A stretch of 64,000 nucleotides of DNA. It comes from Heloderma charlesbogerti (taxonomy: Eukaryota; Chordata; Lepidosauria; Squamata; Helodermatidae). How positions within the stretch are numbered: position 1 is the first letter of the stretch; each line of letters opens with the position of its first letter. Positions 3,107-62,747 of the stretch are shown here, piece after piece. The stretch is taken from NCBI GenBank assembly GCA_026122225.1, contig JANEZZ010000982.1, positions 553,501-617,500 on the forward strand. The letters are read 5' to 3'. Made by a program: the position numbers and the translations under genes. The notes beneath the pieces were generated by a model that had not been told where the DNA came from, did no database searches, and saw only the letters and a list, made by a program, of their open reading frames with translations.

Positions 3107-3113
3107 ATTTTTC

Positions 3114-4004
3114 CCAATTGAAACAAAAGTAGCTATTTTGAAAAAATCCACATTTCCCCTGCCCCCAAATGTGCATTTCCTCCCATAGACTTAATAAAAG
3201 CTTGAAAATGTGGATTTGGGGGGATTTACGCAAATGCACATTTTGGGGGCAGAAGTTCAGGCACATGTTAAGAATTGCATTCCTGCTTGCATTTGGGGTA
3301 ATGAATGGGGCATGTTCACATCATATGTGAACAGGAACAAAATGCTTATGCATCTCTATGTAGAAATAGTTTTAAACAATACAATGGTGGTTGGAGAGGG
3401 GAAAGAGATATGTTAGTTGTGTCCTCCCCAACTGAAATAAAGCACCAACTGGGCAAAACACAGTTCAATCCTCTTGATGTAGTTTTATCTGTGTATGTAG
3501 TTTTATCTTCTCCTTATTTTCATTCTCATACATATCTATGGCACTGTTTGGATCTCAGATTTGATTTGTTGGATGTGTTCAAAGAATGGGAGGGGGGAGC
3601 GATTTCACATTTTATTATATCTCCACCCTGCAATCTTCTTGTAGACCTTGAAATTGAACCTGGCATATTTGTAAATATGATTTTCTTCCTTGGATTTTTG
3701 GAAAGTTGATGGTCTCTGTAGCTAAATTAACCTATGATTTTCAGCAGTGAGAAAAGATTTTCATGGTATGGAATCATTGTATGTATACTTCAGAGCTCTG
3801 GGTGAATGATTATTCCATTGTAAACATTCCTTACAAATCTTTCTAGGTGTTAATTGTTTACAAAATGACACCTTACACTATAATACAGATATAAAGGACT
3901 CTTGATAAAGGACCCGATGCTGATCAAAAAGGCAACCAGATTTAAACCCCATATGGGTTTCAGTGGAACTAAATGCATGTGTGTGTGTATTCATTGTATA
4001 AAAA
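3114..4004. other. AT-rich flank and unique sequence
   Basis: The first ~190 bp repeats words such as AAATGTGCATTT and AAAATGTGGATTT. With 1320-1433 it looks like the remains of an AT-rich hAT-like element into which the RTE LINE inserted, but no termini were found. From about 3300 onward no gene or repeat is recognised. Confidence 0.4.
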
Positions 4005-6350: not shown

Positions 6351-9300
6351 CCCCTTCATGGATCACTGCCTTGTTGTGGTGAAGGGGCTTGCGTAACTCA
6401 GTGAAGCCATAAGCTATGCCATGCAGGGCCACCCAAGATGGACAGGCCATGGCAGAGAGTTCTGACAAAATGTGGTCCACTGGAGAAGGAAATGGCAACC
6501 CACTCCAGTATTCTTGCCAAGAAAACCCCATGGAACGTATCACAAGGCTAAAAGATATGACGCCGGAAGATGAGCCCCTCAGGTCGGAAGGTGTCCAATA
6601 TACTACTGGGGAAGAGCAGAGGGTATTTCCAAGTAGCGCCAGAAAGAGTGAAGCGGCTGGGCCAAAGCCGAAAGGACACTCAGCTGTGGATGTGTCTGGT
6701 GGTGAAAAGAAAATCCGATGCTGTAAAGAACAATATTGTTTAGGAACCTGGAATGTCAGATCAATGAATCAAGGTAAGCTGGAGGTGGTCAAACATGGCA
6801 AGATTGAACATCGACATCTTGGGAATCAGTGAACTAAAATGGACAGGCATGGGCGAATTTAATTCAGGTGACCATCATATCTACTATTGTGGGCAAGAAT
6901 CCCTTAGAAGAAATGGAGTAGCACTCATAGTCAACAAAAGGGTGGGAAAAGCAGTACTGGGGTACAATCTTAAACATGATAGAATGATCTCAGTACGAAT
7001 CCAAGGCAAACCATTCAACATCACAGTAATTCAAGTCTATGCCCCAACCACTGATGCCGAAGAAGCTGAGGTTGATCGGTTCTATGAAGACCTACAACAC
7101 CTTCTAGAACTAACACCAAAAAAAGATGTCCTCTTCATCATAGGGGATTGGAATGCTAAAGTAGGAAGTCAAGAAATCACTGGGATAACAGGCAAGCATG
7201 GCCTTGGTGTACAAAATGAAGCAGGACAAAAGCTAATAGAGTTTTGCCAAGAGAACACGCTGATCATAGCAAACACTCTTTTCCAACAGCACAAGAGACG
7301 ACTCTACACATGGACATCACCAGATGGTCAATATCGAAATCAGATTGATTATGTCCTTTGCAGCCAAAGATGGAGAAGCTCTATACAGTCAGTCAAAACA
7401 AGACCTGGAGCTGACTGTGGCTCAGATCATGAGCTGCTTCTTGCAAAATATTTCGGCTTAAATTGAAGAATGTAGGGAAAACCACTAAACCATTCAGGTA
7501 TGACCTCAATCATATCCCTTATGAATATACAGTGGAGGTGAGGAATAGCTTTCAGGGATTAGACCTGATAGACAGAGTGCCTGAGGAACTATGGACGGAG
7601 GTCCGTAACATTGTTCAGGAAGCAGCAATGAAATCCATCCCAAAGAAAAAGAAATGCAAGAAAGCCAAGTGGCTGTCTGATGAGGCTTTACAAGTAGCTG
7701 AGGAAAGAAGGGAAGCGAAAAGCAAGGGAGAAAGGGGAAGATATATCCAACTGAATGCAGAGTTCCAGACAATAGCAAGGAGAGACAAGAAGGCCTTCTT
7801 AAATGAACAATGCAAAGAAATCGAGGAAAACAACAGAATGGGAAAGACTAGAGATCTCTTCAAGAAAATCGGAGATCTCAAGGGAATGTTTTGTGCAAAG
7901 ACGGGCATGATAAAGGACAAAGAAGGCAGGGACCTAACAGATGCAGATGAGATTAAGAAGAGGTGGAAAGAATACACAGAAGAACTATACAGGAAAGATC
8001 TGAATGTCCCTGATAGCCATGATAGTGACGTCACTGGACTTGAGCCAGACATCCTCGAGAGTGAAGTCAAGTGGGCCTTAGGAAGCATTAGTAACAACAA
8101 ATCTAGTGGAGATGACACTATTCCAGCTGAGCTATTTAAAATCCTAAAAGATGATGCTGTTAAAGTGCTGCATTCAGTATGCCAACAAATTTGGAACACT
8201 CAACAATGGCTGCAAGACTGGAAAAGGTCAGTTTACATTCCAATTCCAAAGAAGGGCAACGCCAAAGAGTGTCAAACTACCGCACAATTGCTCTCATTTC
8301 ACATGCCAGCAAGGTGATGCTCAAAATCCTACAAGCTAGGCTTCAGCAGTATGCGAACCAAGAACTACCGGAAGTACAAGCTGGGTTTCAAAGAGGCAGA
8401 GGAACGAGAGATCAAATCGCCAACATTCGCTGCATCATGGAGAAAGCAAGAGAATTCCAGAAAAACGTCTATTTCTGCTTCATTGACTACGCTAAAGCCT
8501 TTGATTGTGTGGATCACAACAAACTGTGGCAAATTCTTAAAGTGATGGGAGTACCAGACCACCTTACCTGTCTCCTGAGAAACCTGTACGAGGGTCAAGA
8601 AGCAACAGTAAGAACCAGTCATGGAACAACCGAGTGGTTCAAAATTGGGAAAGGAGTACGACAAGGCTGCATATTGTCACCCTGCTTATTTAACTTATAT
8701 GCAGAGTACATCTTGAGAAATGCCAGGTTGGATGAATCAGAGGTTGGAATTAAGATTGCTGGGAGAATTATCAGCAACCTCCGATATGCAGACGATACCA
8801 CCCTAATGGCAGAAAGCGAAGAGGATCTAAAGAGCCTCTTGTTGAGGGTGAAAGAGGAGAGTGCAAAAGCTGGTTTGAAACTCAACATTAAAAAAACTAA
8901 GATCAGGGCATCTGGCCCCATCACTTCCTGGCATATAGAAGGGGACGAAATGGAAGCAGTGACAGATTTTACTTTCTTGGGCTCCAAGATCACCGCAGAC
9001 GGTGACTGTAGCCATGAAATTAAAAGACGCTTGCTCCTTGGGAGGAAAGCTATGGCCAACCTAGACAGCATAGTAAGAAGCAGAGACATCACCTTGCCGA
9101 CGAAGGTCCATCTAATCAAAGCTATGGTTTTCCCAGTAGTAATATATGGCTGTGAGAGCTGGACTATAAGGAAGGCTGAGCGCCGAAGAATTGATGCTTT
9201 CGAACTGTGGTGCTGGAGAAGACTCTTACGAGTCCCCTGGACTGCAAGGAGGTCAAATCAGTCAATCCTCAAGGAAATCAACCCTGAGTGCTCATTGGAA

Positions 9301-9572
9301 GGACAGATACTGAAACTGAAGCTCAAATATTTTGGCCACCTAATGTGAAGAGAAAACTCTCTGGAAAAGACCCTGAATCGCTGGGAAAGACTGAAGGCAA
9401 AAGGAGAAGGGGACGGCAGAGGATGAGATGGCTAGATAGCATCACCGATGCAATGAATATGAACTTGAGCACGCTCCGGGAGAGAGCGCAGGACAGGAAG
9501 GCCTGGCGTGCTATGGTCCATGGGGTCACGTAGAGTCGGACACGACTGAACGACTGAACAACGACAACAACA
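6351..9572 (+). mobile_element. full-length BovB LINE, inactivated
   Basis: About 3.2 kb, collinear with the intact minus-strand copy at 55790-59007, with the same 5' start (CCCCTTCATGGATCACTGCC) and the same ACAACAACAAC-type tail. A 12-bp target duplication ACTAACCTACAA flanks it (6339-6350 and 9573-9584); it split an L2 LINE. BovB is an RTE-clade retrotransposon found in squamates and, by proposed horizontal transfer, in ruminants. The complete 5' end and clean duplication suggest recent insertion in spite of the broken ORF. Confidence 0.95.
6416..9533 (+). pseudogene. BovB endonuclease/reverse transcriptase, frameshifted copy
   Basis: Same domain order as the intact copy: endonuclease (SELKWTG, IIGDWNAKVG, QIDYVL, SDHELL) then RT (FIDYAKAFDCVDH, GVRQGCILSP, RYADDTTLMAES) and the C-terminal RRGRQRMRWLDSI block. 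Comparison with 55798-58941 shows five disabling changes: a 5-bp loss near 6797, a 2-bp gain near 7450, a 1-bp loss near 8271, a CGA-to-TGA stop at 9346-9348 and a 2-bp gain near 9375. The reading frame is thus cut into blocks 6416-6832, 6795-7466, 7463-8317, 8179-9348 and 9288-9533. Catalytic residues are still readable, so decay is recent. Confidence 0.93.
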
Positions 9573-12227: not shown

Positions 12228-12978
12228 TAGGAATGTAGAAAAGTCACTTACCTATTCGCAGGGGTGATTCGCGGTGGGGGGGAGGCGCTTCGCTTCTCCC
12301 CTCGAAGTTCAGGCGAGGGGGGGCAGGCATCCCGCCTCGCCCGGCCGAAATTCAGGCCGGGGGGGGAGGCGCCCCACCTCGCCTGGCCGAAATTCAGGCC
12401 GGGGAGAAGCGCCCCGTCTCCCCGGCCACAAAAGAAAAAGTAAAAAAACAAACAAACCCTGTGAAATAAGGGAACGCTATTTGCGTTGCCCTTATTTTCA
12501 CCGTAGTCTACGTAAATCTTTATGTAGACTAGACGTGCCAAAATAAGGAACGCAAATGGCGGCGCCCATGGGCCGCCGCCATTTGCGTACGCGCTTTTTT
12601 TTTCCCCCCAAAGTCACCCATGATAGTCTACATGACGATTTACGTAGCCTATCACGGCTGACTTTGGAAATCTAGCCGTGATAGGCTACGTAAATCGTCA
12701 CATAGCCTATCACGGGTATTTGTGTGTTTGTTTGTTTTTACTTCTTTATTTTGTAATGGCGGCGGCGGCAGCTGGTCAGGAGACCGGTCACCGCCCCCGA
12801 CGAAACTCCACTGAAACGCCGCCAGGACCCGCCACCAGGAGGGACATTCACTGAAGGTAAGTCCCATCCCGGGGGGTGGCAGGGGGCCGGCGGAGAATTT
12901 CCCCAACACTTTTGGGGGGCCGAATGCCTCGGCACTCGGCCTCCCGAAGATTCATGGGGAAATTCTCCACCATCCCTA
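12228..12978. mobile_element. family A hairpin element, copy A1
   Basis: 751 bp flanked by a perfect 8-bp duplication CAACAGCA (12220-12227 and 12979-12986), with ends TAGGAATG and CATCCCTA. From the left it holds a splice-donor-like motif facing left (12246-12251), a GC-rich tandem block (about 12290-12425), then palindromes at 12504-12531, 12551-12587, 12619-12657 and 12675-12715. Next come ATGGCGGCGGCGGC at 12756 and a right-facing AAG/GTAAGT donor-like motif at 12857. A 32-codon frame from that ATG stops just before the donor. No transposase. An 8-bp duplication points to hAT. Confidence 0.9.
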
Positions 12979-13491: not shown

Positions 13492-13959
13492 TAGGGATGG
13501 CGGAGAATTCTGCCACAGACTCCAATGAGGCTGGATTCTAAAGAATCTGGCCCCCTGGAGTCCATGGCAGAATGGAAGACTTACCCCTGACTCCACGCGG
13601 AATCCTCTTTGGCCAGAACCTCCGGCTCCGGATTTCCAACAATATGGCTGCCATGCCATATTGCTGGCTGAAGGGGACTGACTGCAGACGCAGATGGCAT
13701 CCGGGATGCTATTTGCAGCCATAAAGGCCTTAGTTTAAGGTAAAAGCAGCCATTTATGGCTGCCTTTGCCTTAAACTAAGGCCTTTAGGTCCACGAATGG
13801 CATCCCAGATGCCATTTGCGTCCGCAATCAGTAGTCCCCTTCAGCCAGCGATACAGCATGGCAGCTCTGCAGAGCGGAGCCAGCCGAAGAGTATTCCGGG
13901 GAGAGGAACGGATCGTCGACCCCCCCTGCGGACCACCCTCCCCTGGACTGGCAGGTAGG
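13492..13959. mobile_element. family A-related element lacking its right end
   Basis: It starts TAGGGATGGCGGAG and is flanked by a perfect octamer CTTTTTGA (13484-13491 and 13960-13967), yet the right end stops at GCAGGTAGG without the CATCCCTA terminus. The interior has a long palindrome built on GGCCTTAGTTTAAGG near 13727-13792. Either the last ~15 bp were deleted precisely up to the duplication, or the octamer match is coincidence. Confidence 0.65.
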
Positions 13960-14150: not shown

Positions 14151-15238
14151 TAGGGATTTAGGGATGGCAGAGAATTCCGCCATGGATTCCAGCCCACTAT
14201 GCTATTTGTGGTTCCTTTTTTTTCACCATAATTGCCTACGTAAATATTTATGTAGGCTAGAACGGCGAAAAATAGGGAACGCAAATGGTGGCCACCGTAG
14301 CTACCGCCATTTGCGTACGCCATTTTTTGGGGGGGGGTAGCCATGATAGGCTACATAAATTCTTACTTAGCCTATCACGGCAGCCTGGAAGGACACAAAG
14401 GCCGTCGCTATGGCGGCCACCATTTGCGTCCGCAGCAGCCCGTTCGTGGCTGGAAGTCCGGCTGCGGATGGACCTGGCCAGCTGCTCTGCAGAGCCGCCG
14501 CAGAGCAGAGCCAGCTGGGCAGGATCCTGGTGGGGGGAGGACCGGATCGCCTCCCCCCTATTGAGGATTCCAGGGGGAGAGACAGAGCACCTCTCCCCCC
14601 CAGCGGATGCCCCAATCAGAACAGGTAAGGGATTCGTACATCCCTATAGGGATGTTAGAGAATTCCGCCACGGATCCCAGGGGGGCCAAATTCCAGTGAA
14701 TTTGGCCCCCCAGAATCCATGGCAGAATGAAGCCCCCCACCCCATCACCCTGCAAAAGCCCTGTGAAACAGAGCCCAACCTGGCTGCGGCTCTGGTGGCG
14801 GCAGCTCTGGCCACTGCCAGGCTGCTGCAGCTGCAAATGGCGGCCGTCATAGCGGCCCCCATTTACATCCCTACGCCGGCCCATAATAGGCTATGTAAAT
14901 ATTTACGTAGCTTATCACGGCTAAAGTGGAGACGCAAATGGCGTAAGGGACACCGTTTGCATCCCTGCTTTAGCCGTGATAGGCTACGTAAATATGTACA
15001 TAGTATATCACGGGTTTGCGTAGGGACGCAAATGGCATCCCCTACGCAGGACACCATTTGCGTCCAAAGCAGCCCAGCAGCGGCTGGAGGCCCCACTGCG
15101 GGTTGGCCTGGCCGGCGGCTCTGCAGCCTGGCCGTGGAGCAGAGCCAGCCAGGCAGGATTCTGGTGGGAGGAACAGATCGCCTCCCCCCACCTGTGGAAC
15201 CCGGCACAGCCAGGTAAGCGGGGTTTCGTACACCCCTA
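14151..15238. mobile_element. family A element (nest level 2)
   Basis: It begins TAGGGAT at 14151, is cut after 8 bp by another element, resumes at 14647 and ends CACCCCTA at 15238. Flanking octamers CTTCCAGA (14143-14150) and CTTCCGGA (15239-15246) match at 7 of 8 positions. Interior palindromes include GTGATAGGCTACGTAAATAT-type hairpins near 14884-14922 and 14977-15012. Net length without the insert is about 600 bp. Confidence 0.8.
14159..14646. mobile_element. family A element (nest level 3) inserted in a terminal repeat
   Basis: 488 bp, TAGGGATGGCAGAG to CGTACATCCCTA. The duplicated octamer is the host element's own terminus: TAGGGATT (14151-14158) and TAGGGATG (14647-14654), 7 of 8. It contains GTGATAGGCTACATAAAT-type and GCAAATGG/CCGCCATTTGCG modules and a right-facing ACAG/GTAAGG motif near 14625. 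Confidence 0.85.
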
Positions 15239-17829: not shown

Positions 17830-18197
17830 TAGGGATGTCCAAACCCACCCCCATGTGAGAAAATGTGCATTTTTCCAAAATGTGCATTTGTGTGCTTACG
17901 CAAATACAAGCACTCGTAAAATGTGCATTTTGCATACCAAAAATGTGCATTCGCAAAAATGTGCATTTTCATGCATATGCAAATATGTGTGTTTTGCCAT
18001 CACCATTTCATTTTTCAAAAAATGGTGACCGCGGAGCTTGATGAGGCTGCTGGGATGAGTGTGGGCCACTCGCCAAGCACAGGCAAGGGGCCAGCCGTGC
18101 AAGGGGCGAGCAGGGGCTTGGCAAGCAGGGCTCAGGGGTGCAGGCAGGGGGGTTCCGCCGGATTCCCGGATGGAATCAGGCACCCATGCCAACCCTA
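17830..18197. mobile_element. hAT-like element (family B)
   Basis: 368 bp, TAGGGATGTCC to CCAACCCTA, perfect 8-bp duplication GGCTTTAT (17822-17829 and 18198-18205). The left half is a tandem of AAAATGTGCATTTT words; the right half is GC-rich (GGCTTGGCAAGCAGGG, shared with 38409 and 46625). Noncoding. Confidence 0.88.
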
Positions 18198-18238
18198 GGC
18201 TTTATTTTGCTATTTCTTCATTCCATTTTCTGAAGTCT

Positions 18239-18383
18239 AATTTTTATGGGTTGGATCCAGACTGACTCATACTTTAGTCCTATTGGTAATCAATGGGACT
18301 TAAGTTAGTTATGACTAACTTAAGTCCCATATTGATTTCAGTGAAACTAAAGCATGGTTAGGTTCATCTGGATCCAACTCCAT
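18239..18383. repeat. palindromic MITE-like repeat
   Basis: An imperfect inverted repeat: TTGGATCCAGAC at the left, CTGGATCCAAC at the right, and a core AAGTTAGTTATGACTAACTT. A related block lies at 41900-42030. Too small to encode anything. Confidence 0.6.
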
Positions 18384-18778
18384 ATGATATCTAGCCCTAG
18401 TCCCTAAATACGAGATCTATTGCGTACATATGCATTCCTCCCTGTCTACCATTTATTAAATGCACTTGAGCTATATAAAACTGTGCCTCATTTGATTTGA
18501 TGTCCTGGAGGGAGGGCTAGTAAATATGAGCCACCCCTTTATTCTCATCGTTTTACCTCACAGTTTTAGGCGAATCTCCAGTGGAGGCACCATGCCAGTT
18601 GTTAGAACCAGGTCAACTTGTCCCCTCTTCTTTCCCTGCATGGGGGCCAGATCATGCATCTCCCCAGTTTAGCTGATGAAAAGGGGAGTTAACATTTTAT
18701 TTCCCTGGACACAGCAAGATAAGTAGTTGGCTTAAACTCAAACTAGTGCCTCAAACTAGTTTGTCCATCTAGCCCAGT
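18384..18778. other. unique sequence, no gene seen
   Basis: No repeat family or coding signature recognised in this stretch. Confidence 0.4.
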
Positions 18779-23403: not shown

Positions 23404-24049
23404 TAGGGATGTACGAAACACCTACCTGGCTCCGCACCAGGCAATCCGTGGGGGGGGGAGCTCCATCCCTCCCCCTGGAATCCTGCCTGGCCGGCTCCGC
23501 TCTGCAGCCAAGCCGCAGAGCTGCTGGCCGGCTCCAGCCGCCCGCAGCCAGACATCTGGCCACTGGGCAGCCCTGCAGGGACGCAAATGGCAGCTGTCGT
23601 AGCCGCCGCCATTTGCGTCCCTGTGTTGAGCCGTGATAGGCTACGTAAATGGTAGCCACTGCCATTTGCGTACGCTGGGTTTTTTCCCCCCTGCCGTGAT
23701 AGGCTACGTAAATGCTTACGTAGCCTATCACGGCCTCTGCAGGGATGCAAATGGCGTCCCTGCATTAGCCATGATAGGCTACGTAAGGATTTACGTAGCC
23801 TATCACAGCTATGAAGACGAAGCGAATGGCAGCCGCAGGACGGCCGCCATTCGCAAAGCAGCGCGGACGGGAGCAGGTAAGTGCTCCATTTCGCGCGCCT
23901 TTCGTGGGGTGGGGGTGGTGGGGACTTCGTCCCGTGCGCCTTTTGTGGGGTGGGGGGACGGGGCTTCATTCCGCGATGGATTTCGGGGGGCCAAATGCAC
24001 TGGCATTCAGCCTCACCGAGATCCGTCGCGGAATTCTCTGACATCCCTA
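23404..24049. mobile_element. family A hairpin element, copy A23
   Basis: 646 bp with perfect 8-bp duplication CTCCTGGA (23396-23403 and 24050-24057). It starts TAGGGATGTACGAAAC and ends CTGACATCCCTA. Hairpins built on GTGATAGGCTACGTAAATGC and its complement lie near 23694-23733 and 23769-23808; GCAAATGG/CCATTTGCG modules lie between. Near the right end GAATGGCAGCCGCAGG leads, open for 17 codons, to a CAG/GTAAGT donor-like motif (gtaagt 23877-23882). Confidence 0.92.
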
Positions 24050-29489: not shown

Positions 29490-30408
29490 TAGGGATGGCG
29501 GAGAATTTCTCCACGAATCTTCGGGAGGCCGAGTGCCAACGCATTCGGCCCCCTGAAAGTGTTGGGGAAATTCTCTGCCAGCCCCCCGCCCCCCCCCCCG
29601 GGATGGGACTTACCTTCAGCGAATGTCCCTCTCGGCGGCAGGTCCCGGCGGCATTTCGGCGGCGTTTTGGCGGGGGTGGCGGCCGGTCTCCTGACCGGCC
29701 GCCGCCATTACAAAATTAAAAAGTAAAAAAACCCCCCCACACACACCCGTGATAGGCTACGTGATGATTTACGTAGCCTATCATGGCTAGATTTCCAAAG
29801 TCAGCCGTGATAGGCTACGTAACTCGTCACGTAGCCTATCACGGGTGACTTTGGGAAAAAAAAAAAGCGCGTACGCAAATGGCAGAGGCCAATGGGCGCC
29901 ACCATTTGCGTTCCTTATTTTGGCACGTCTAGTCTACGTAAAAATTTACGTAGACTACGGCGAAAATAAGGGCAACACAAATAGCATTCCCTTATTTTCG
30001 CCGTAGTCTACGTAAATCTTCACATAGACTAGACGTGCCAAAATAAGGAACGCAAATGGCGGCGCCCATAGGCTGCCGCCATTTGCGTACGTGCTTTTCT
30101 TTTCTTTTTTCCAAAGTCACCCGTGATAGGCTACGTGACGATTTACGTAGCCTATCACAGCTGACTTTGGAAATCTAGCCGTGATAGGCTACGTTAATAA
30201 TTACGTAGCCTATCACGGGTTTTTTTTTTCCCCACTTTTTCTTTTGCGGCCAGGCAAGGTGGAACGCCTCCCCCCCCGGCCTGAATTTCAGCCGGGCAAG
30301 GCGGGGCGCCTCCCCCCCCGGCCTGAACTTTGGGGGGAGAAGCGAAGCGCCTCCCCCCCACTGCGAAGCAAGCTGCGGGACAAGGTAAGTCCCTTTCGTC
30401 CATCCCTA
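29490..30408. mobile_element. family A hairpin element, copy A29
   Basis: 919 bp, perfect 8-bp duplication CTCATTCC (29482-29489 and 30409-30416). Ends TAGGGATGGCGGAG and CGTCCATCCCTA. A left-facing donor-like motif (complement at 29608-29613) is preceded on the minus strand by ATGGCGGCGGCC starting at 29708. A right-facing AAG/GTAAGT lies at 30385-30390. The middle is a two-scale palindrome (29746-30219), and a GC-rich tandem block lies at about 30245-30355. No protein. Confidence 0.93.
29746..30219. repeat. self-similar palindrome of copy A29
   Basis: A ~474-bp imperfect palindrome centred near 29981 (AACACAAATAGCATT). Each arm contains, outside to inside, two GTGATAGGCTACGT...ACGTAGCCTATCAC hairpins, a GCGTACGCAAATGGC module and a TAGTCTACGTAAA...TTTACGTAGACTA hairpin. 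Every sub-hairpin is palindromic on its own. Confidence 0.9.
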
Positions 30409-31640: not shown

Positions 31641-31746
31641 CATTGTGACGGCTGTTTCTGTACATTCAAATAATGGCTTGAGGCTGCTGTCATTGAGTGA
31701 ATGACATGCATGTCTGAACTCTACCAAACTAGACGTGACTCTAAAT

Positions 31747-32709
31747 TAGGTTGTGGACGAAAGTCACTTACCTGTCCTCGAAGATTTCCCGCGGTGGGGG
31801 GCAGGAGCTTCGTTGCTCCCCCTCCAAAGTTCAGGCCGGGGGGGGGGAGGCTTCCCTCCTCGCCCGGCCGAAATTCAGGCTGGGGGGGAGGCTTCCCGCC
31901 TCGCCCGGCCGAAATTCAGGCCGGGGAGGAGGCGCCTCGCCTCGCCCGGCCGCGAACTAAACAGTTAAAAAAAAAAACGCCCCCGTGATAGGCTACGTGA
32001 CGATTAACGTAGCCTATCACGGCTAGATCTGCAAAGTCAGCCGTGATAGGCTACGTAAATCGCCATGTAGCCTATCACGGGTGACTTAAAAAAAAAAAAA
32101 GCGCGTACGCAAATGGTGGCCCCCATAGGGAGCCACCATTCGCGTTCCTTATTTGGTCGCTGTAGTCTACGTAAATGTTTACGTAGACTACGGCGAAAAT
32201 AAGGGCAACGCAAATAGCGTTCCCTTATTTTCGCCGTAGTCTACGTAAACATTTACGTAGACTACAGCGACCAAATAAGGAACGGGAATGGCGGCTCCCT
32301 ATGGGGGCCGCCATTATCCATACGCGCTTTTTTTTTTAAAAGTCACCCGTGATAGGCTAAGTGATGATTTACGTAGCCTATCACGGCTGACTTTGCAAAT
32401 CTAGCCATGATAGGCTACGTTAATCATCACGTAGCCTATCACGGGGGCGTTTTTTTTTTCTTTTATTGCAATGGCGGCGGCGGCAGCCAGTCGAAAGATC
32501 GGCTGCCGCCCCTGCCCCTGACGAAGACCTGACAAACCGCCGGCCGGACCTGCCACCGGGAGGGACATTCGGCAAAGGTAAGTCCCGTCCCGGGGGGGGT
32601 GCGGGGGGTGGGGGGTGCGGAGAGTTTCTCCCTGAAACTTGTTCGGGGGGCCGAACACGTTGGCGCTCGGCCCCCCAAAGTTTCGGGGATAAATTCTCCG
32701 CCATCCCTA
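31747..32709. mobile_element. family A hairpin element, copy A31 (longest)
   Basis: 963 bp with perfect 8-bp duplication CTCTAAAT (31739-31746 and 32710-32717). The left end is TAGGTTGTGGACGAAAG, the right end CGCCATCCCTA. A left-facing donor-like motif (complement 31766-31771, CAG/GTAAGT) lies 20 bp inside the left end. Next come three GC-rich tandem units (about 31795-31955), the two-scale palindrome (31982-32447), ATGGCGGCGGCGGCAG at 32471 and a right-facing AAG/GTAAGT (32578-32583). The frame from that ATG stops after 16 codons. No transposase; must be mobilised in trans. Confidence 0.93.
31982..32447. repeat. self-similar palindrome of copy A31
   Basis: A 466-bp palindrome centred at 32214 (AACGCAAATAGCGTT). 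The arms mirror each other module by module: two GTGATAGGCTACGT hairpins, an A-rich or T-rich GCGCGTA spacer, a CAAATGG/CCACCATT module, and one TAGTCTACGTAAA hairpin flanked by CGGCGAAAATAAGG. Six short hairpins are thus contained in one large one. Confidence 0.92.
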
Positions 32710-32717
32710 CTCTAAAT

Positions 32718-40988: not shown

Positions 40989-41596
40989 TAAGGGTGTATG
41001 AAACCCCACTTACCTGGCTCCGCTGGGTTCCATGGCGGGGGGGAGGCGATCCGGTCTTTCCCCCCGGAATCCTGCCTGGCCGGCTCCGCTCCACAGCCAG
41101 TCCATGGAGCCACCGGCTGGGCCAATCCACAGCGGGGCCTCCATCCGCTGCCGGGCTGCTGTGGACACAAATAGCATCCTGCGTAGGGGACGCCATTTGC
41201 GTCCCTATGCTGGGCCATGATAGGCTATGTAAATATTTATGTAGCCTATCACAGCTAAAGCAGGGACACAAATGGTGGCCGCTACGCCATTTCCGTCCCT
41301 GTCTTTTGCCATGATAGGCTACATAGATACTTACGTAGCCTATCACGGCAAAAGCAGGGATGCAAATGGCATAGCAGCTGCCATTTGTGTCCCCACTTTA
41401 GCCGTGATAGGCTACGTAAATATTTACGTAGCCTATCACAGCCCAGTGTAGGAACGCAAATGGTGTCCCCTATGCAGGTAGGAGCCGCCACCAGGTAGGT
41501 CCGTTCCGGGGATTTCAGGGGGTGGCAGGGGGGGAGTCCGTTCCGCCATGGACTCCGGGGGGCCAGATTATGTGGTGGAATTCTCCAACATCCCTA
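40989..41596. mobile_element. family A hairpin element, copy A41
   Basis: 608 bp, TAAGGGTGTATGAAACC to CCAACATCCCTA; octamers GAAGGGAG (40981-40988) and GAAGGGGG (41597-41604) agree at 7 of 8. Hairpins near 41215-41255, 41310-41350 and 41400-41440 are of the GATAGGCTACGTAAATAT type, several with CpG-to-TpG changes. A left-facing donor-like motif (complement 41008-41013) is present. Confidence 0.88.
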
Positions 41597-50571: not shown

Positions 50572-51263
50572 TAGGGATGTACGGAAGTGACTTACCTTTC
50601 GCAGATTATGTTGATGGTGGGGAGGGGAGGCGCTCCGTCCCTCCACCTGGAATCCTGGCCAGCCGGCTGTGCTCTGCAGGGATTCTGTGGAGCCGCCAGC
50701 CGGCTCTGCCAGCAGCCGAACATCCAGCCGCTGGCTAGCAGGGATGCAAATGGTGGCGGCCATAGCCGCCGCCGTTTGCGTTCCTGTAGTCAGCCATGAT
50801 AGGCTACGTAAATCTTTACGTAGCCTATCACGTCTGACTTTTTTAAAAAAACCACGCGTGTACGCAAATGGCGGCGGCTATGGCCACCGCCATTTGCGTA
50901 CACGCATGTGGTTTTTTTAAAAGTCAGACGTGATAGGCTACGTAAAGATTTACGTAGCCTATCACTTTTCTTTTTTTACCTAGCCGTGATAGGCTACGTA
51001 AATCTTTACATAGCCTATCACGTCTTTTTTTTTTTTACATGGGAAATGGCGGCGGCAGCAGCCGGTTGGAAGACCGGCTGCCGCCGCCGCTGAACCGCTG
51101 CCGCAGCCACCACCACCCGGAAGATCCGCCCCAGGTAAGTCTCATCCCAGGGGGATCCGCGGGGGGGCGGGAGGGCAGGCCGTTCCACCACAGATTTCGG
51201 GGGGCCAAATGTGCTGGCATTCAGCCTCCCCGAGATCCATGGCGGAATTCTCTGACATCCCTA
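50572..51263. mobile_element. family A hairpin element, copy A50
   Basis: 692 bp, perfect 8-bp duplication GTTGATGT (50564-50571 and 51264-51271). Ends TAGGGATGTACGGAAG and CTGACATCCCTA. Left-facing donor-like motif (complement 50590-50595), palindrome 50793-50965, a further hairpin near 50985-51022, ATGGCGGCGGCAGC at 51046 and a perfect right-facing CAG/GTAAGT (gtaagt 51135-51140). The frame from the ATG stops after 15 codons. Confidence 0.93.
50793..50965. repeat. two-scale palindrome of copy A50
   Basis: A 173-bp palindrome centred near 50879. Outer hairpins GATAGGCTACGTAAATCT at each side, then ACGCGTGTACGCAAATGGCG mirrored by CGCCATTTGCGTACACGC. Confidence 0.9.
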
Positions 51264-53757: not shown

Positions 53758-54638
53758 TAGGGATGCATGAAAGTGACTTACCTTTCCGCGGATTATGTTG
53801 ATGCTCCGTCCCTCCCCCTGGAATCCTGGATGGGGGGGAGGCACTCCGTTCCTCCCCCCCGGAATCCTGGCCGGACGGCCGTTCTCCACAGCGATTCTGC
53901 AGAACCGCTGGCCGGCTCTGCCAGCAGCCGGACATCCGGCCGCTGGCTAGCAGGGACGCAAATGGCGGCGGCTGTAGCCGCTGCAGTTTGCGTCCCTGCA
54001 GTCAGCCGTGATAGGCTATGTAAATGTTTACGTAGCCTATCACGGCTGATTTAAAAACAAAAACGCGCGTACACAAATGGCGGCAGCCATGGCTGCTGCC
54101 ATTTGCATTCTTGATATTGGCACGTTTTAGTCTACATAAACATTTATGTAAACTAAGACAGAGAAAATAAGGGGAACGCAAATAGCGTAGTGTCTACGCT
54201 ATTTGCGTTCCCCTTATTTTCGCCATCTTAGTCTACGTAAATGTTTACGTAGACTAAGACGTGCCAAAATAAGGAACGCCGCCATTTGCATACGTGCATG
54301 TGTGTGTGTGTGTGGTTTTTTTTTTAAGTCAGCCATGATAGGCTACGTAAACATTTACGTAGCCTATCATGGTGTTTTTTTTAAATCTAGCCGTGATAGG
54401 CTACGTAAATCTTTACGTAGCCTATCACTTTTTTTGTTTTCTTAACTGGAAATGGTGGCGACGGCAGCCGGTTGGAAGACTGGCCGCCGCCGCAGCCGCC
54501 AGGAAGATCCGCCCAAGGTAAGTCCCGTCCCGGGGGTGGCGGGGGGGTGGCGGGCCGTTCCGCCACTGATTTCAGAGGGCCGAATGCACTGACATTCAGC
54601 CTCCCCGAGATTCGTGGCGGAACTATCGTACATCCCTA
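53758..54638. mobile_element. family A hairpin element, copy A53
   Basis: 881 bp, perfect 8-bp duplication CAAAAAAG (53750-53757 and 54639-54646), inserted inside the CR1 coding region. Left-facing donor-like motif (complement 53776-53781), palindrome 54003-54372, further hairpin near 54388-54427. An ATG at 54452 opens a frame of 22 codons that runs exactly to an AAG/GTAAGT motif (54518). Confidence 0.94.
54003..54372. repeat. two-scale palindrome of copy A53
   Basis: About 370 bp, centred near 54192 (TAGCGTAGTGTCTACGCTA). The arms carry GATAGGCTAYGTAAATGTTT, CAAATGGCGGC/GCCGCCATTTGC and TAGTCTACRTAAAYATTTA hairpins in mirrored order. The right arm has gained a TG microsatellite (54298-54314). 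Confidence 0.88.
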
Positions 54639-55282: not shown

Positions 55283-55665
55283 TCTTATATAAGAACATAG
55301 GAAGCTGTCTTATACCAACTCAGGTCATTGATTTGTCTAGCTCACTACACCTTCTCCAACCTGGTGCCCTCCAGATGTTTTGAACTTCAACTCCCATCAA
55401 GCCCAGCCAGCATGGCCAATGGTCAGGAATTCTGGAAGTTGTCATCTACAGCAGCTGGAGGTTGGGGAAGGCATTGCTTGTCTGCATTGACAAGCTGGAG
55501 GTTGAGGAAGGCACATCTGCACTGACAAGCAGCGGCCTTCCAGGTTTTCAGACCCAGGGCTTCTCCAGTCCTACCTGCAGATGCCAGGGGTTGAATCTGG
55601 GACCTTCTGCATGCAAAGCAGGTACTCTACCACAGAGTTATGTCTCTCTTCAGTTCTTTTCCAGT
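55283..55665 (-). repeat. tRNA-derived SINE (reverse) with a MITE inserted
   Basis: Reverse tail ATAAGAACATAGGAAGCTGT, head with GGTTGAATCTGGGACCTTC (box B on minus) and CATGCAAAGCAGGTACTCTACCAC (box A side) near 55610-55635. The MITE fragment ACCTGGTGCCCTCCAGATG...GGTTGGGGAAGGC occupies about 55350-55468, and a short GCTGGAGGTTGAGGAAGGC duplicate follows at 55493. Confidence 0.7.
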
Positions 55666-55789: not shown

Positions 55790-58700
55790 GTTGTTGTTCA
55801 GTCGTTCAGTCGTGTCCGACTCTTCGTGACCCCATGGACCATAGCACGCCAGGCCTTCCTGTCCTGCACTCTCTCCCGGAGCGTGCTCAAGTTCATATTC
55901 ATTGCATCCGTGATGCTATCTAGCCATCTCATCCTCTGCCGTCCCCTTCTCCTTTTGCCTTCAGTCTTTCCCAGCATCAGGGTCTTTTCCAGAGAGTTTT
56001 CTCTTCGCATTAGGTGGCCAAAATATTGGAGCTTCAGCTTCAGTATCTGTCCTTCCAATGAGCAGTCAGGGTTGATTTCCTTTAGGATGGACTGATTTGA
56101 CCTCCTTGCAGTCCAGGGGACTCGTAAGAGTCTTCTCCAGCACCACAGTTCGAAAGCATCAATTCTTCGGCGCTCAGCCTTCCTTATAGTCCAGCTCTCA
56201 CAGCCATACGTTACTACTGGGAAAACCATAGCTTTGATTAGACGGACCTTTGTCGGCAAGGTGATGTCTCTGCTTCTTACTATGCTGTCTAGGTTTGCCA
56301 TAGCTTTCCTCCCAAGGAGCAAGCGTCTTTTAATTTCATGGCTACAGTCACCGTCTGCGGTGATCTTGGAGCCCAGGAAAGTAAAATCTGTCACTGCTTC
56401 CATTTCTTCCCCTTCTATATGCCAGGAAGTGATGGGGCCAGATGCCATGATCTTAGTTTTTTTAATGTTGAGTTTCAAACCAGCTTTTGCACTCTCCTCT
56501 TTCACCCTCAACAAGAGGCTCTTGAGATCCTCTTCGCTTTCTGCCATTAGGGTGGTATCGTCTGCATATCGGAGGTTGTTGATAATTCTCCCGGCAATCT
56601 TAATTCCGACCTCTGATTCATCCAACCCGGCATTTCTCATGATGTACTCTGCATATAAGTTAAATAAGCAGGGTGACAATATGCAGCCTTGTCGTACTCC
56701 TTTCCCAATTTTGAACCACTCGGTTGTTCCATGTCTGGTTCTTACTGTTGCTTCTTGACCCTCGTACAGGTTTCTCAGGAGACAGGTAAGGTGGTCTGGT
56801 ACTCCCATCACTTTAAGAATTTGCCACAGTTTGTTGTGATCCACACAATCAAAGGCTTTAGCGTAGTCAATGAAGCAGAAATAGACGTTTTTCTGGAATT
56901 CTCTTGCTTTCTCCATGATGCAGCGAATGTTGGCGATTTGATCTCTCGTTCCTCTGCCTCTTCTAAACCCAGCTTGTACTTCCGGTAGTTCTCGGTTCGC
57001 ATACTGCTGAAGCCTAGCTTGTAGGATTTTGAGCATCACCTTGCTGGCATGTGAAATGAGCGCAATGGTGCGGTAGTTTGAACACTCTTTGGCGTTGCCC
57101 TTCTTTGGAATTGGAATGTAAACTGACCTTTTCCAGTCTTGTGGCCACTGTTGAGTGTTCCAAATGTGTTGGCATATTGAATGCAGCACTTTAACAGCAT
57201 CATCTTTTAGGATTTTAAATAGCTCGGCTGGAATACTGTCATCTCCGCTAGCTTTGTTGTTACTAATGCTTCCTAAGGCCCACTTGACTTCACTCTCGAG
57301 GATGTCCGGCTCAAGTTCAGTGACGGCACTATCATGGCTATCAGGGACATTCAGATCTTTCCTGTATAGTTCTTCTGTGTATTCTTGCCACCTCTTCTTA
57401 ATCTCATCTGCTTCTGTTAGGTCCCTGCCTTCTTTGTCCTTTATCATGCCCATCTTTGCACAAAACGTTCCCTTGAGATCTCCAATTTTCTTGAAGAGAT
57501 CTCTAGTCTTTCCCATTCTGTTGTTTTCCTCGATTTCTTTGCATTGTTCATTTAAGAAGGCCTTCTTGTCTCTCCTTGCTATTCTCTGGAACTCTGCATT
57601 CAGTTGGGTATATCTTCCCCTTTCTCCCTTGCTTTTCGCTTCCCTTCTTTCGTGAGCTACTTGTAAAGCCTCCTCAGACAGCCACTTGGCTTTCTTGCAT
57701 TTCTTTTTCTTTGGGACGGATTTCGTTGCTGCCTCCTGAACAATGTTACGGACCTCCGTCCATAGTTCCTCAGGCACTCTGTCTATCAGGTCTAATCCCT
57801 GAAATCTATTCCTCACCTCCACTGTATATTCATCAGGGATATGATTTAGGTCATACCTGAACGGTTTAGTGGTTTTCCCGACGTTCTTCAATTTAAGCCG
57901 AAATTTTGCAAGAAGCAGCTCATGATCTGAGCCACAGTCAGCTCCAGGTCTTGTTTTTACTGACTGTATGGAGCTTCTCCATCTTTGGCTGCAAAGGACA
58001 TAATCAATCTGATTTCGATATTGACCATCTGGTGACGTCCATGTGTAGAGTCGCCTCTTGTGCTGTTGGAAAAGAGTGTTTGCTATGATCAGCATGTTCT
58101 CTTGGCAAAACTCTATTAGCTTTTGTCCTGCTTCATTTTGTACACCAAGGCCATGCCTGCCTGTTATCCCGGTGATTTCTTGACTTCCTACTTTAGCATT
58201 CCAATCCCCTATGATGAAGAGGACATCTTTTTTTGGTGTTAGTTCTAGAAGGTGTTGTAGGTCTTCATAGAACCGATCAACCTCAGCTTCTTCGGCCTCA
58301 GTGGTTGGGGCATAGACTTGAATTACTGTGATGTTGAATGGTTTGCCTTGGATTCGTACTGAGATCATTCTATCATTTTTAAGATTGTACCCCAGTACTG
58401 CTTTTCCCACCCTTTTGTTGACTATGAGTGCTACTCCATTTCTTCTAAGGGATTCTTGCCCACAATAGTAGATATGATGGTCACCTGAATTAAATTCGCC
58501 CATGCCTGTCCATTTGAGTTCGCTGATTCCCAAGATGTCGATGTTCAATCTTGCCATCTCATGTTTGACCACCTCCAACTTACCTTGATTCATTGATCTG
58601 ACATTCCAGGTTCCTAAACAATATTGTTCTTTACAGCATCGGATTTTCTTTTCACCGCCAGACACATCCACAGCTGAGTGTCCTTTCGGCTTTGGCCCAG

Positions 58701-59007
58701 CCGCTTCACTCTTTCTGGCGCTACTTGGAAATACCCTCTGCTCTTCCCCAGTAGCATATTGGACACCTTCCGACCTGAGGGGCTCATCTTCCGGCGTCAT
58801 CTCTTTTAGCCTTGTGATACGTTCCATGGGGTTTTCTTGGCAAGAATACTGGAGTGGGTTGCCATTTCCTTCTCCAGTGGACCACATTTTGTCAGAACTC
58901 TCTGCCATGACCTGTCCGTCTTGGGTGGCCCTGCACGGCATAGCTTATGGCTTCACTGAGTTACGCAAGCCCCTTCGCCACAACAAGGCAGTGATCCATG
59001 AAGGGGC
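55790..59007 (-). mobile_element. full-length BovB LINE with intact ORF
   Basis: 3218 bp on the minus strand with an 11-bp target duplication ACCCTACACTT (55779-55789 and 59008-59018). The 3' terminus is the GAACAACAACAA tail at 55790. It carries one uninterrupted 1047-codon ORF. A short 5' UTR of about 66 bp precedes it (58942-59007). A complete 5' end, clean duplication and intact ORF make it the youngest-looking LINE in the window. Confidence 0.96.
55798..58941 (-). CDS. BovB endonuclease/reverse transcriptase (ORF2-type)
   Basis: A 1047-residue retrotransposon protein that nicks target DNA and reverse-transcribes its own RNA from the nick (target-primed reverse transcription). The APE-type endonuclease covers about residues 107-345: TWNVRS at 111, catalytic Glu in SELKW (E141), GDWNAK (D247), QIDY (D313) and SDH (338-340). 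The RT palm covers about 600-870: FIDYAKAFD with D692, GVRQGCILSP at 748-757 and YADD at 792-795. A C-terminal region (RRRGRQRMRWLDSI near 997-1010) ends in KSRTRLND. Residues 1-100 are poorly characterised. The start ATG at 58941 is the first in the frame; whether translation begins there or further in (M129) is open. No stop or frameshift is visible, and all named catalytic residues are present, so the element may be competent. Expression would start from the element's own 5' end; nothing here shows it is transcribed. Confidence 0.96.
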   Translation of the reverse strand: MPCRATQDGQVMAESSDKMWSTGEGNGNPLQYSCQENPMERITRLKEMTPEDEPLRSEGVQYATGEEQRVFPSSARKSEAAGPKPKGHSAVDVSGGEKKIRCCKEQYCLGTWNVRSMNQGKLEVVKHEMARLNIDILGISELKWTGMGEFNSGDHHIYYCGQESLRRNGVALIVNKRVGKAVLGYNLKNDRMISVRIQGKPFNITVIQVYAPTTEAEEAEVDRFYEDLQHLLELTPKKDVLFIIGDWNAKVGSQEITGITGRHGLGVQNEAGQKLIEFCQENMLIIANTLFQQHKRRLYTWTSPDGQYRNQIDYVLCSQRWRSSIQSVKTRPGADCGSDHELLLAKFRLKLKNVGKTTKPFRYDLNHIPDEYTVEVRNRFQGLDLIDRVPEELWTEVRNIVQEAATKSVPKKKKCKKAKWLSEEALQVAHERREAKSKGERGRYTQLNAEFQRIARRDKKAFLNEQCKEIEENNRMGKTRDLFKKIGDLKGTFCAKMGMIKDKEGRDLTEADEIKKRWQEYTEELYRKDLNVPDSHDSAVTELEPDILESEVKWALGSISNNKASGDDSIPAELFKILKDDAVKVLHSICQHIWNTQQWPQDWKRSVYIPIPKKGNAKECSNYRTIALISHASKVMLKILQARLQQYANRELPEVQAGFRRGRGTRDQIANIRCIMEKAREFQKNVYFCFIDYAKAFDCVDHNKLWQILKVMGVPDHLTCLLRNLYEGQEATVRTRHGTTEWFKIGKGVRQGCILSPCLFNLYAEYIMRNAGLDESEVGIKIAGRIINNLRYADDTTLMAESEEDLKSLLLRVKEESAKAGLKLNIKKTKIMASGPITSWHIEGEEMEAVTDFTFLGSKITADGDCSHEIKRRLLLGRKAMANLDSIVRSRDITLPTKVRLIKAMVFPVVTYGCESWTIRKAERRRIDAFELWCWRRLLRVPWTARRSNQSILKEINPDCSLEGQILKLKLQYFGHLMRRENSLEKTLMLGKTEGKRRRGRQRMRWLDSITDAMNMNLSTLRERVQDRKAWRAMVHGVTKSRTRLND

Positions 59008-59107: not shown

Positions 59108-60425
59108 TAGGGACGTACAGACTGTGTAAATTCCATTCCATCTGTGTTTCATAGATTGTCAAGCACCTTTCATTCTGTTGGCCACCCATAAATGGAATTG
59201 GATTTATTTATTTATTTTAGTTTCTGAACTTGTGCAAATGTGCATTTGCACCAATGTGCGTGAGAGAAAATGCGTAAATTCACCCAAAATTCATAAAATT
59301 CCCCAAAATGTGCATTTTCATGCTTTAGCCTATGGAGAAAAGTGCATTTTTGACCACTTTATCATTTTCTGCATATTTTTCTATGAGGAAATTTTAGGGA
59401 TGTCAGAGAATTCCGCCATGGATCTCGGTGAGGCCGAATGCCAGTGCATTAGGCCCCCCCGAAATCCATGGCAGAACGAAGCCCCCCGCCCCCCCACCCC
59501 ACGAAAGGCGTGCAAAACGGAGCACTTACCTGCTGCTGTCCGCGCTGACTTGCAAATGGCGGCCGCGTCTGTGGCCGCCATTTGTTTCCTCATTGTAGCC
59601 ATGATAGGCTACGTAATTATTTACGTAGCCTATCACGGCTAATGCAGGGACGCCATTTGCATCCCTGCAGAGGCCGTGATAGGCTACATAAGTATTTTTA
59701 CGTATACTACGTAAGTATTTTGCCTATCATGGCAAAAAACAAACAAACAGTGGACGCAAATGGCGGCAGCTATGGCGACCGCCATTTGCGTTCCCTTTTT
59801 TTGGCCATTTTAGCCTACATAAATATTTACATAGGCTATTACGGTGAAGAAAAGGGGGAACACAAATGGCGTAGTGGCCGCCATTTGCATTCTCTTTTTT
59901 TTCGCCGTAATAGCCTACATAAATATTTACGTAGGCTAAAACAGTGGGAAAAAAAGGGAATGCAAATGGCGGCTGCCGTAGTCACTGCCATTTGCGTCTG
60001 CTGCTGTTGTTGTTTTTTTGCCATGATATATTTATGTAGCCTATCACGGCAAGATACAGGGATGCAAATGGCGGCGGCTACGGCAACCGCCATTTCCATC
60101 TCTGCAGACTGCCCAGCGGCCGGATGTCCAGGTACGGGTGGCCCCAGCCGGCGGCTCTGCAGAATCTCCGCGGAGTTGAGCTGGCTGGACAAAATTTCAG
60201 GGGGAGGGATGGAGCACCTCCCCCCCACCGCAAATGTCACCCTTCAAAAAGATAAGTGACTTTCGTACATCCCTAGGAAATTTGCACACAAAATCAAGAA
60301 AGTTTGAAAAAATGGTCTGCAAGCTGGCAGAATCCACCTGACAGGGTCCGCTGCAGAATCTGCCAGCCGGATTCATCAAAATCCAACCTCATTTGGTTCC
60401 ATTGTGGATTTCTCTGACATCCTTA
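59108..60425. mobile_element. family D/G-type host element with nested A59
   Basis: TAGGGACGTACAGACTGTG at the left (complement of the family D end) and TTTCTCTGACATCCTTA at the right; octamers CTTAGGAC (59100-59107) and CTTAGTAC (60426-60433), 7 of 8. Its own sequence is AAATGTGCATTT-rich; 59395-60275 is a younger insertion. Confidence 0.8.
59395..60275. mobile_element. family A hairpin element, copy A59
   Basis: 881 bp, perfect 8-bp duplication GGAAATTT (59387-59394 and 60276-60283). Ends TAGGGATGTCAGAG and TTCGTACATCCCTA. Left-facing CAG/GTAAGT motif (complement 59524-59529), preceded on the minus strand by an ATGGCGGCC open to the donor. Hairpins GATAGGCTACGTAATTATTT near 59598-59638 and TAGCCTACATAAATATTTAC near 59810-59840 and 59908-59940. 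Several CAAATGGCGG/CCGCCATTTG modules. Right donor degenerate (GATAAGTGAC). Confidence 0.93.
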
Positions 60426-61302: not shown

Positions 61303-61984
61303 TCGAGATGCTGGAGAAATCTGAGATGGACTAAAATAAGCTCAGATTTCTAAGAATCCTAGGGATGGCGGAGAATTCCACCATAAATTTCAGTGAGGCC
61401 GAATGCACTGGCATTTGGCCCCCTGAAATCTGTGGCAGAATGGCCTGCCCCCCCGCCCCCCCGCGGATTCCCCCCGGGACGAAGCTTACCTGGGGCAGAT
61501 GTTCCGGACGGTGGCGGCGGCGGTGGCGGCGGCGGCTGGTCTTTTGACCGGCTGCCGCAGCCACCATTTGCATTTTGGTCTTTGCCATGATAGGCTACGT
61601 AAGTATTTATGTAGCGTATCATGGCAGGCCAAGAAAAAAAAAGCAGCGTACGCAACTGGCAGCGGCTACAGCGGCCGCCATTTGCGTTCCCTATTTTTCG
61701 CCGTTTTATCCTACATAAATATTTACGTAGGCTTTTATGGTGAAAAAAAAAGAAACACAAACAGCACCCACCACGCTATTTGAAGTTCCCTTTTTTTCGC
61801 TGTAATTGCCTACATAAATATTTACGTAGGATAAAACGGTGAAAAATAGGGAACGCAAATGGCGGCCGCCATAGCTGCCGCCATTTGCATACGCTGTTTT
61901 TTTTTAATTTCGGGGGGGGGCATGCCGTGATAGGCTACGTAAATACTTACATAGCCTATCATGGCAGCCTGGAAGGATGCAAAT
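61303..61984. mobile_element. family A element A61 in a family D remnant, 3' truncated
   Basis: 61303-61359 is a family D left end (GAGATGCTGGAGAAATCTGAG). At 61360 a family A copy starts (TAGGGATGGCGGAG). On the minus strand an ATG at 61567 opens 26 codons (MVAAAAGQKTSRRR...) that end exactly at a CAG/GTAAGC donor-like motif (exon side ends 61490). Hairpins lie near 61587-61625 and 61925-61963, with CGTTTTATCCTACATAAATA and CCTACATAAATATTTACGTAGG modules between. The copy ends near 61984 without its right TIR. Confidence 0.78.
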
Positions 61985-62747
61985 GTCTTAGACTGGCCCT
62001 GGTCCAACCCAGCAGTTTCATATGCTCAAGCTATCACCCTACCAGCTTGGGTGATCCCTCTGTTAGACCCGATATGGCAAAGAAGAGGTGCACACACAAA
62101 TGAACTCTGCGGATCACAAGTTGCTCCCATATATTTTACACCCACACATTGTGTCCCTGACTCCTGAATGCATTTAGCAGGCATGGAGTGGGGTGTGGGC
62201 TGGGGGGGGGTGGCATGCAAAAACTCCAGTGAGTCAAGGTAATGAAAGCTCCTTGTAATGCATTTTTATTTCTGCAGAGGAAATTAACCAGTTGCTAATA
62301 ACTGTATGGTCTCTAGGCCAGACGGTCCCTTTGAAAAGTTAACATGTACTCTCTTTCAGTTCCTAGTAGGGGGTAAACAAATGCCAGAGCAAATACACAT
62401 AAGCACAAAAGTGGAGAATAGCAGTTCTATGTCTTAGATTGAGATAGTAAGTATGGCCATTGTTATTTAGATGGAACATACTGGAGCACTTATCTTTTAG
62501 TACACTCCATTTCCAAACTGAATGCAGCCCTAATCGCAGGATTGAAAGCTATTGTAATTGTGCACCCTTCTAAATGCTGACAAGAATATACAATTACATT
62601 GTTTGGAACCGAGTTTAATGTCCCCTGGGTTGTATTAGCATTTGTATTTTACTTATGCATTAAAAAAATCTGCACAAAAAACAAGGTCAGAGTGTAAGAG
62701 TTATAAATATTGAACAAATACACACACACACACACACACACACACGT

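Follow-up and report, generated by a model that had tools for sequence, protein, structure and literature searches.

Palindromes within palindromes in a family of small, probably hAT-mobilised elements of Heloderma charlesbogerti, with arms that tend to evolve in concert

How a short mobile element comes to carry hairpins inside larger palindromes, and whether such symmetry is written by copying or kept by selection, is the question raised by one element in the 64,000-nucleotide stretch of DNA analysed here (contig JANEZZ010000982.1; hereafter the window). The making and keeping of long palindromes is usually inferred from single repeat pairs. In a family of many copies with symmetry at nested scales, successive stages of arm copying, of spacer inversion and of palindrome growth could be followed, and one could ask if hairpins acquire compensatory changes even in the absence of selection. 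We take the family of this element, copy A31, to consist of non-autonomous, probably hAT elements in which the two arms of a copy's palindrome tend to change together.

A31 is a whole non-autonomous element of 963 bp (31747-32709, + strand) with ends TAGG...CCCTA inside a perfect 8-bp repeat, CTCTAAAT, at 31739-31746 on the left and 32710-32717 on the right; the extent and the duplication given in an earlier note on this DNA were both borne out by reading the sequence. A G+C-rich 41-bp tandem repeat of 2.7 units, detected with Tandem Repeats Finder, lies left of the core (31841-31952, + strand). The core is a palindrome bounded by inverted arms, for which we obtained 492 bp (31968-32459) and a centre at 32213.5 instead of the 466 bp and 32214 first proposed. 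Its outer arms (31968-32099 and 32328-32459, 132 nt) are 93% alike and its inner arms (32112-32205 and 32222-32315, 94 nt) 97% alike. The modules run Y Y X Z W Z X Y Y, that is, six 44-bp Y or Z hairpins, two X palindromes and, in the middle, W, which is nearly symmetric. Y and Z are two versions of a single 44-bp hairpin with an 8-nt loop, and a GCAAAT-GCG half-site is common to X and W. From left to right the modules are Y1 (31981-32024, the mirror-copied outer module, from module search and flank comparison), Y2 (32039-32082, module search), X (32107-32145, inverted-repeat and module search), Z (32155-32198, with a derived shoulder, from hairpin comparison), the 22-nt W (32203-32224, from comparison of centres), Z again (32229-32272, hairpin comparison, a 100% mirror of its partner), X (32284-32318), Y2 (32345-32388) and Y1 (32403-32446), the last three placed by module search. 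The mirrored order of short palindromes thus stood, with eight or nine modules where six had been counted. Since each Y-Y pair is itself palindromic (31982-32081, 43-nt arms, 93%), A31 has three scales of symmetry: the 44-bp hairpins, the hairpin pairs of ~100 bp and the entire 492-bp palindrome. Mirror partners are 91-100% alike and Y and Z non-partners 55-61%; Y non-partners also reach 91%, Y1 and Y2 being alike as inverted copies, a likeness that the middle scale of symmetry requires.

The mirror design is real and common to sister copies. By inverted-repeat search the nested arrangement was found, as had been claimed, in A29 (palindrome 29745-30220), A50 (50797-50964) and A53 (54006-54372), and also in A61, A41 and A63 and, weakly (77%), in A59. 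A29 (29490-30408, - strand, with a perfect duplication) has the order YYXZWZXYY. Searches for ends, inverted repeats and modules gave X Y X Z W Z X Y Y with the second X halved for A53 (53758-54638, + strand), X Y X Y Y for A50 (50572-51263, + strand), X Y x Y X z W z X Y X, read on the + strand, for A59 (59395-60275, - strand), and W Z X Y Y for A12 (12228-12978, + strand), which has lost the left half of its palindrome. A61 (61360-61990, - strand; module and inverted-repeat searches) misses one end and has the core Y X z W z X Y. The simplest state, an X/Y alternating array with a period of 94-98 bp, is seen in A41 (40989-41596, + strand, 94-bp period; ends by eye, with flanking 8-bp repeats GAAGGGAG/GAAGGGGG that differ by one mismatch) and in A63 (63372-64000, + strand, cut by the window end, with an extra z-W unit and a z hairpin as palindrome centre), both delimited by tandem, module and inverted-repeat searches. 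The X/Y array A23 (23404-24049, + strand) was recognised by end and module searches; at 23583-23735 one half of a Y hairpin abuts one half of an X palindrome, the pattern expected had a deletion fused the centres of two hairpins.

The earlier note had each copy carrying its own mix of modules; orders do vary, but Y X Z W Z X Y, with symmetric changes, forms the core of A29, A31, A53, A59 and A61 alike. As X and Y/Z kinds mostly alternate, mirror order is partly automatic, and the argument built on it therefore loses some force. In A41 and A63 mirror partners are hardly or not more alike than other module pairs. Copies with similar ends and other interiors include A17 and A39 and also A47, A25, A38 and A13; the inverted-repeat search covered the last four, and all four have central palindromes of different sequence. 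A13 (13492-13957) has CTTTTTGA on both flanks, misses the right terminal TAGGGATG tip and contains a nested palindrome (13647-13865) of sequence unlike the A31 family. Two sites have the appearance of insertions into or beside other copies: A63 has X and Y modules immediately beyond its left end (63180-63371), as though it had landed in or next to another copy, and within 14151-15238 A14 (14159-14646) seems to lie in the outermost 8 bp of A14b, its 8-bp duplication, TAGGGATT/TAGGGATG, being the tip of A14b and the outer pair being CTTCCAGA/CTTCCGGA.

Chance palindromes were ruled out by folding. As single-stranded DNA, A31 reaches -419.5 kcal/mol compared with -167.5 (sd 7.5) in 20 shuffles (z -33.8), far beyond its shuffles in the folding check that had been suggested. 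In a scan of the window in 200-nt steps with RNA energies and 12 shuffles per step, z fell below -4 in 74.3% of the 101 steps belonging to marked copies (A13 and A47 included). The share was 13.6% for the 22 steps from four other hAT-like copies and 3.3% for the 515 from background. Marked copies accounted for 53 of the 60 steps that folded most strongly, other hAT-like copies for two and background for five. The background stretch 18180-18700 gave one 17-nt pair in an inverted-repeat search. A known RNA family was set aside, the sole match in the window being a tRNA at 55584-55640, outside the element.

The elements are likely mobilised by hAT transposases, as had been proposed, because of their 8-bp duplications and TAGGGATG ends. 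In the window, TAGGGATG-like ends were found in 15 pairs whose flanking 8-bp repeats match, ten of them perfectly and five with one mismatch; the repeats of A14, A14b and A41 have one mismatch. The terminal pattern was TAGGGATG...CATCCCTA-like, with up to two mismatches allowed in the search; the left end of A31 is degenerate (TAGGTTGT). Perfect duplications total 11 with A31 included, and seven of these belong to X/Y arrays (A12, A23, A29, A31, A50, A53 and A59), copies of 646-963 bp. hAT terminal repeats begin T/C-A-R-N-G, as do the ends of the copies. The hAT target consensus nTnnnnAn was not clearly visible among the 11 perfect duplications, with T at position 2 in 5/11 and A at position 7 in 5/11 (by eye), and a hAT transposase domain was absent from the ten ORFs, of 75 in the window, searched against Pfam, a set that did not include small ORFs inside copies. 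Helitrons were set aside given the target duplications and inverted ends. Exact-pattern scans of viral and prokaryote contigs gave no match, as expected for animal DNA. No such family was described in a literature search of titles and abstract beginnings, excluding subscription journals and Repbase; the family may already have a named entry in catalogue libraries.

Non-autonomous hAT elements and hAT MITEs resemble these copies in being short, with no coding frame identified, TAGGGATG ends, 8-bp duplications and several copies; they differ from the A31 family in that its interior is a hierarchy of palindromes, and no transposase was seen. The ends of the A31 family match each other for only a few bases. 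Foldback elements such as Galileo (PMC4168063) and Tetris (PMC4079207) also have long inverted arms, internal repeats and variously expanding arms, but their long arms are terminal repeats, whereas the A31 palindrome is internal, lying 221 and 250 bp inside the ends instead of reaching them. In two of the three complete copies of Tetris in D. virilis the repeats cluster by element, which the authors see as possible homogenisation (PMC4079207), a precedent for the grouping described next.

Simple inheritance of an ancestral palindrome would make A31 and A29 alike left arm to left arm. A four-point test of A31 against A29 gave instead 11 within-copy sites, which set the copies apart in both arms together, one same-side and one crossed (222 columns), and was stable under four aligner settings; A31 against A53 gave 14:0:1 and A29 against A53 gave 8:1:1. 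Gap columns were dropped, as were arm ends beyond AAATAAGG next to the centre where present, because an inverted centre would otherwise count (before this trimming A31/A29 stood at 11:1:4, with three crossed sites in the centre). Both arms of A31 differ from those of A29 at the same place at 14 sites, compared with at most nine in 212 circular shifts; for A31/A53 the number is 21, matched by none of 148 shifts, and for A29/A53 it is 12, matched by one of 149. Parallel CpG decay fails as a cause of the shared changes, since eight of the 11 in A31/A29 are transversions.

Relative to the outgroup arms 29L, 29R and 12R, A31 has 11 two-arm and eight one-arm changes (196 columns), and random placement of its single sites produced at most seven two-arm changes in 100,000 trials. 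Ten of the 11 fall within one 58-column stretch (alignment columns 148-205) over X and Z, so this control overstates them and they may reflect one or two rewriting events. A29 has no two-arm changes of its own (0 of 187 columns) against ten one-arm changes, and A53 has five against 29 one-arm or unlike changes (124 columns), part of the 29 being in its damaged second X. Outside the palindrome A31 is the fastest-changing copy, with 55 own sites in 393 terminal columns compared with 19 in A29 and 27 in A12. When the core arms of six copies were compared, within-copy sites exceeded both side patterns combined in 14 of 15 copy pairs, comparisons that share copies; the exception, A61 against A59, showed no preference (6:5:6). 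The arm tree paired 31L with 31R (99) and 50a with 50b (91) and, weakly, the arms of A59 (60) and A53 (50); arms of A29 and A61 were unpaired, 29R joining 12R (56) and 61b joining 63a (79).

The centre and the flanks of the core have also changed. A31 and A12 have every letter of the 22-nt centre in common, but in opposite orientation relative to the element ends; that of A29 has the A12 orientation with two mismatches. This inversion is one case within one window. Left of the core, A50, A53, A59 and A63 carry an X module (mutual match 73-89% over 38-90 nt); the flank of A61, with 19 nt matching A63, is too short to assign. In A31 and A29 the left flank instead repeats the right flank in mirror image (31L/31R 95.8% over 71 nt). 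Because the X flank is common to more distant copies, we read the mirrored flank as probably derived, that is, as growth of the palindrome.

These observations are best accommodated if the palindromes of source elements are remade now and then by fold-back or template-switch arm copying, to which we assign a probability of roughly one half (0.52). The elements, small, non-autonomous and probably mobilised by hAT transposases, would have palindromes arrayed through their interior, and in source elements one arm would now and then be rewritten as the reverse complement of the other, as synthesis folds back or switches template at the scale of the whole arm and probably of the 44-bp hairpin too. 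Such rewriting would homogenise the arms, invert the centre and extend the palindrome into the flank; repair of the gap left by transposon excision could offer the opportunity, and after insertion the copies seem simply to decay. Since homogenised arms and inverted spacers are published marks of template switching, we favour fold-back copying, acting episodically, as the way in which the palindromes are remade. Switching between inverted repeats is reported to homogenise arms, invert spacers and make clustered changes (PMC8604942), and template switching to make compensatory changes and to create or repair hairpin stems (PMC8794818). Homogenised arms were found in A31 and between subfamilies and were not found in A29's own lineage; an inverted spacer between kept arms was found once, in A31 relative to A12 and A29. 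Clustered multi-base changes and compensatory pairs are further points of likeness to those reports, which deal with coding DNA of yeast, where the arms are short and the inverted spacers have 2-5 substitutions, and with RNA genes (PMC8604942, PMC8794818), whereas in the A31 family the process would operate in mobile elements, on several nested scales and around a centre of 22 nt. Of the two ideas in the earlier note, repeated templated inversion and selection for cruciform structure, the four-point tests, arm tree, centre and flank favour the former, although the events may be few. A broader version, in which the lineage palindromises itself, with arms rewritten during excision repair or replication and the three-scale symmetry arising from the transposition cycle and not from selection on sequence, is tentative, and we regard it as possible but doubtful.

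Selection could instead keep the hairpins, as cruciforms, single-strand folds, binding sites for transposase or host factors or sources of dsRNA, with compensatory substitutions restoring pairing. The hairpins are indeed kept across subfamilies, the 44-bp length and 8-nt loop occurring in 45 of 47 Y/Z pairs, and the right-end hairpin (32614-32709, the last 96 bp of A31, + strand) folds in all 11 copies examined with 33-41 pairs and shows two-sided changes at 12 of 26 consensus pairs, a raw count with no shuffle control. Copying at the hairpin scale was examined in the 45 Y/Z hairpins of equal length; the two with other loop lengths, one of them outside any copy, were dropped. One stem position was Watson-Crick in 43/45 (28 GC, 8 CG, 7 TA) compared with 21.4 expected, while several others had either no surplus of pairs or a deficit. 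Two-sided cells numbered 45 compared with 23.0 (sd 3.7) in shuffles (0/500 as high) and 7-22 in slid structures, and two pairs out of 18 held 27 of the 45. No excess was seen in the number of pairs showing a two-sided change (9 compared with 8.2 in shuffles, 202/500 as high) or of further pair types (24 compared with 26.6, 455/500 as high). Because these measures, the least disturbed by relatedness, do not rise above the shuffles and the cells concentrate in two pairs, the case for copying at this small scale is suggestive only. In the Z hairpins of A31 a non-pairing shoulder has taken on a form that mostly pairs with the opposite shoulder, in both big arms. A wobble test of the Y/Z hairpins in element orientation, which skipped the two outermost pairs, found no excess of G-U (29) over A-C (36), hence no sign of selection on that RNA strand; in the right-end hairpin G-U outnumbered A-C (30 against 11), but 17 of the 30 were at two pairs common to most copies. 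Selection alone explains neither the inverted centre nor the mirrored flank, and we consider it unlikely as the whole cause; it may also be at work on the hairpins alongside copying.

Arm copying by template switching has a close counterpart in recombination of one arm with the other, whether by gene conversion or by crossing-over and whether within a chromosome or between sisters, which would homogenise the arms and flip the centre without any switch of template. It predicts the same arm homogenisation and centre inversion and leaves similar marks, by which the two processes are indistinguishable here; it has no obvious way to extend a palindrome into non-homologous flank or to pair a hairpin's own shoulders, and we think it quite improbable. 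About as improbable is that the palindrome of each subfamily was born once, by a fresh inverted duplication of half an element, with no later copying between arms. Such births would yield arms grouped by copy, and a half-palindrome, A12, does exist. However, A12 retains both outer arm flanks (28 nt, 71%), which suggests that it arose by deletion; A29, A31 and A53 have Y X Z W Z X Y in common, which points to one origin; and the shared changes of A31 lie mostly in X and Z, as partial rewriting predicts. Decay of an ordinary ancestral palindrome with no special process fits the changes of A29 after its split, all one-sided (10/10), but is very improbable given the 11:1:1 of A31/A29, the within-copy grouping in 14 of 15 copy pairs and the eight transversions among 11 shared changes.

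Several minor features were recorded in and around the copies. The motif AGGTA[AG]G, which we liken to a splice donor, points outward 23-27 bp from one end in 9/12 copies and lies 104-175 bp from the opposite end in 8/12; in A47 it is at 151 and 93 bp, in A13 there is none, and it may belong to the terminal repeat. Many X modules contain ATGGCGGC, presumably YY1-like, and many Y modules contain TACGTAA, presumably bZIP-like (12552-12717, 29745-30220, 31981-32446 and other X/Y arrays). Elsewhere in the window, a 1048-aa ORF with endonuclease and reverse transcriptase domains by Pfam (55798-58944) is what we take to be a likely BovB/RTE-type retrotransposon, and broken frames that resemble it by eye lie at about 1530-3320 and at 6413-9348.
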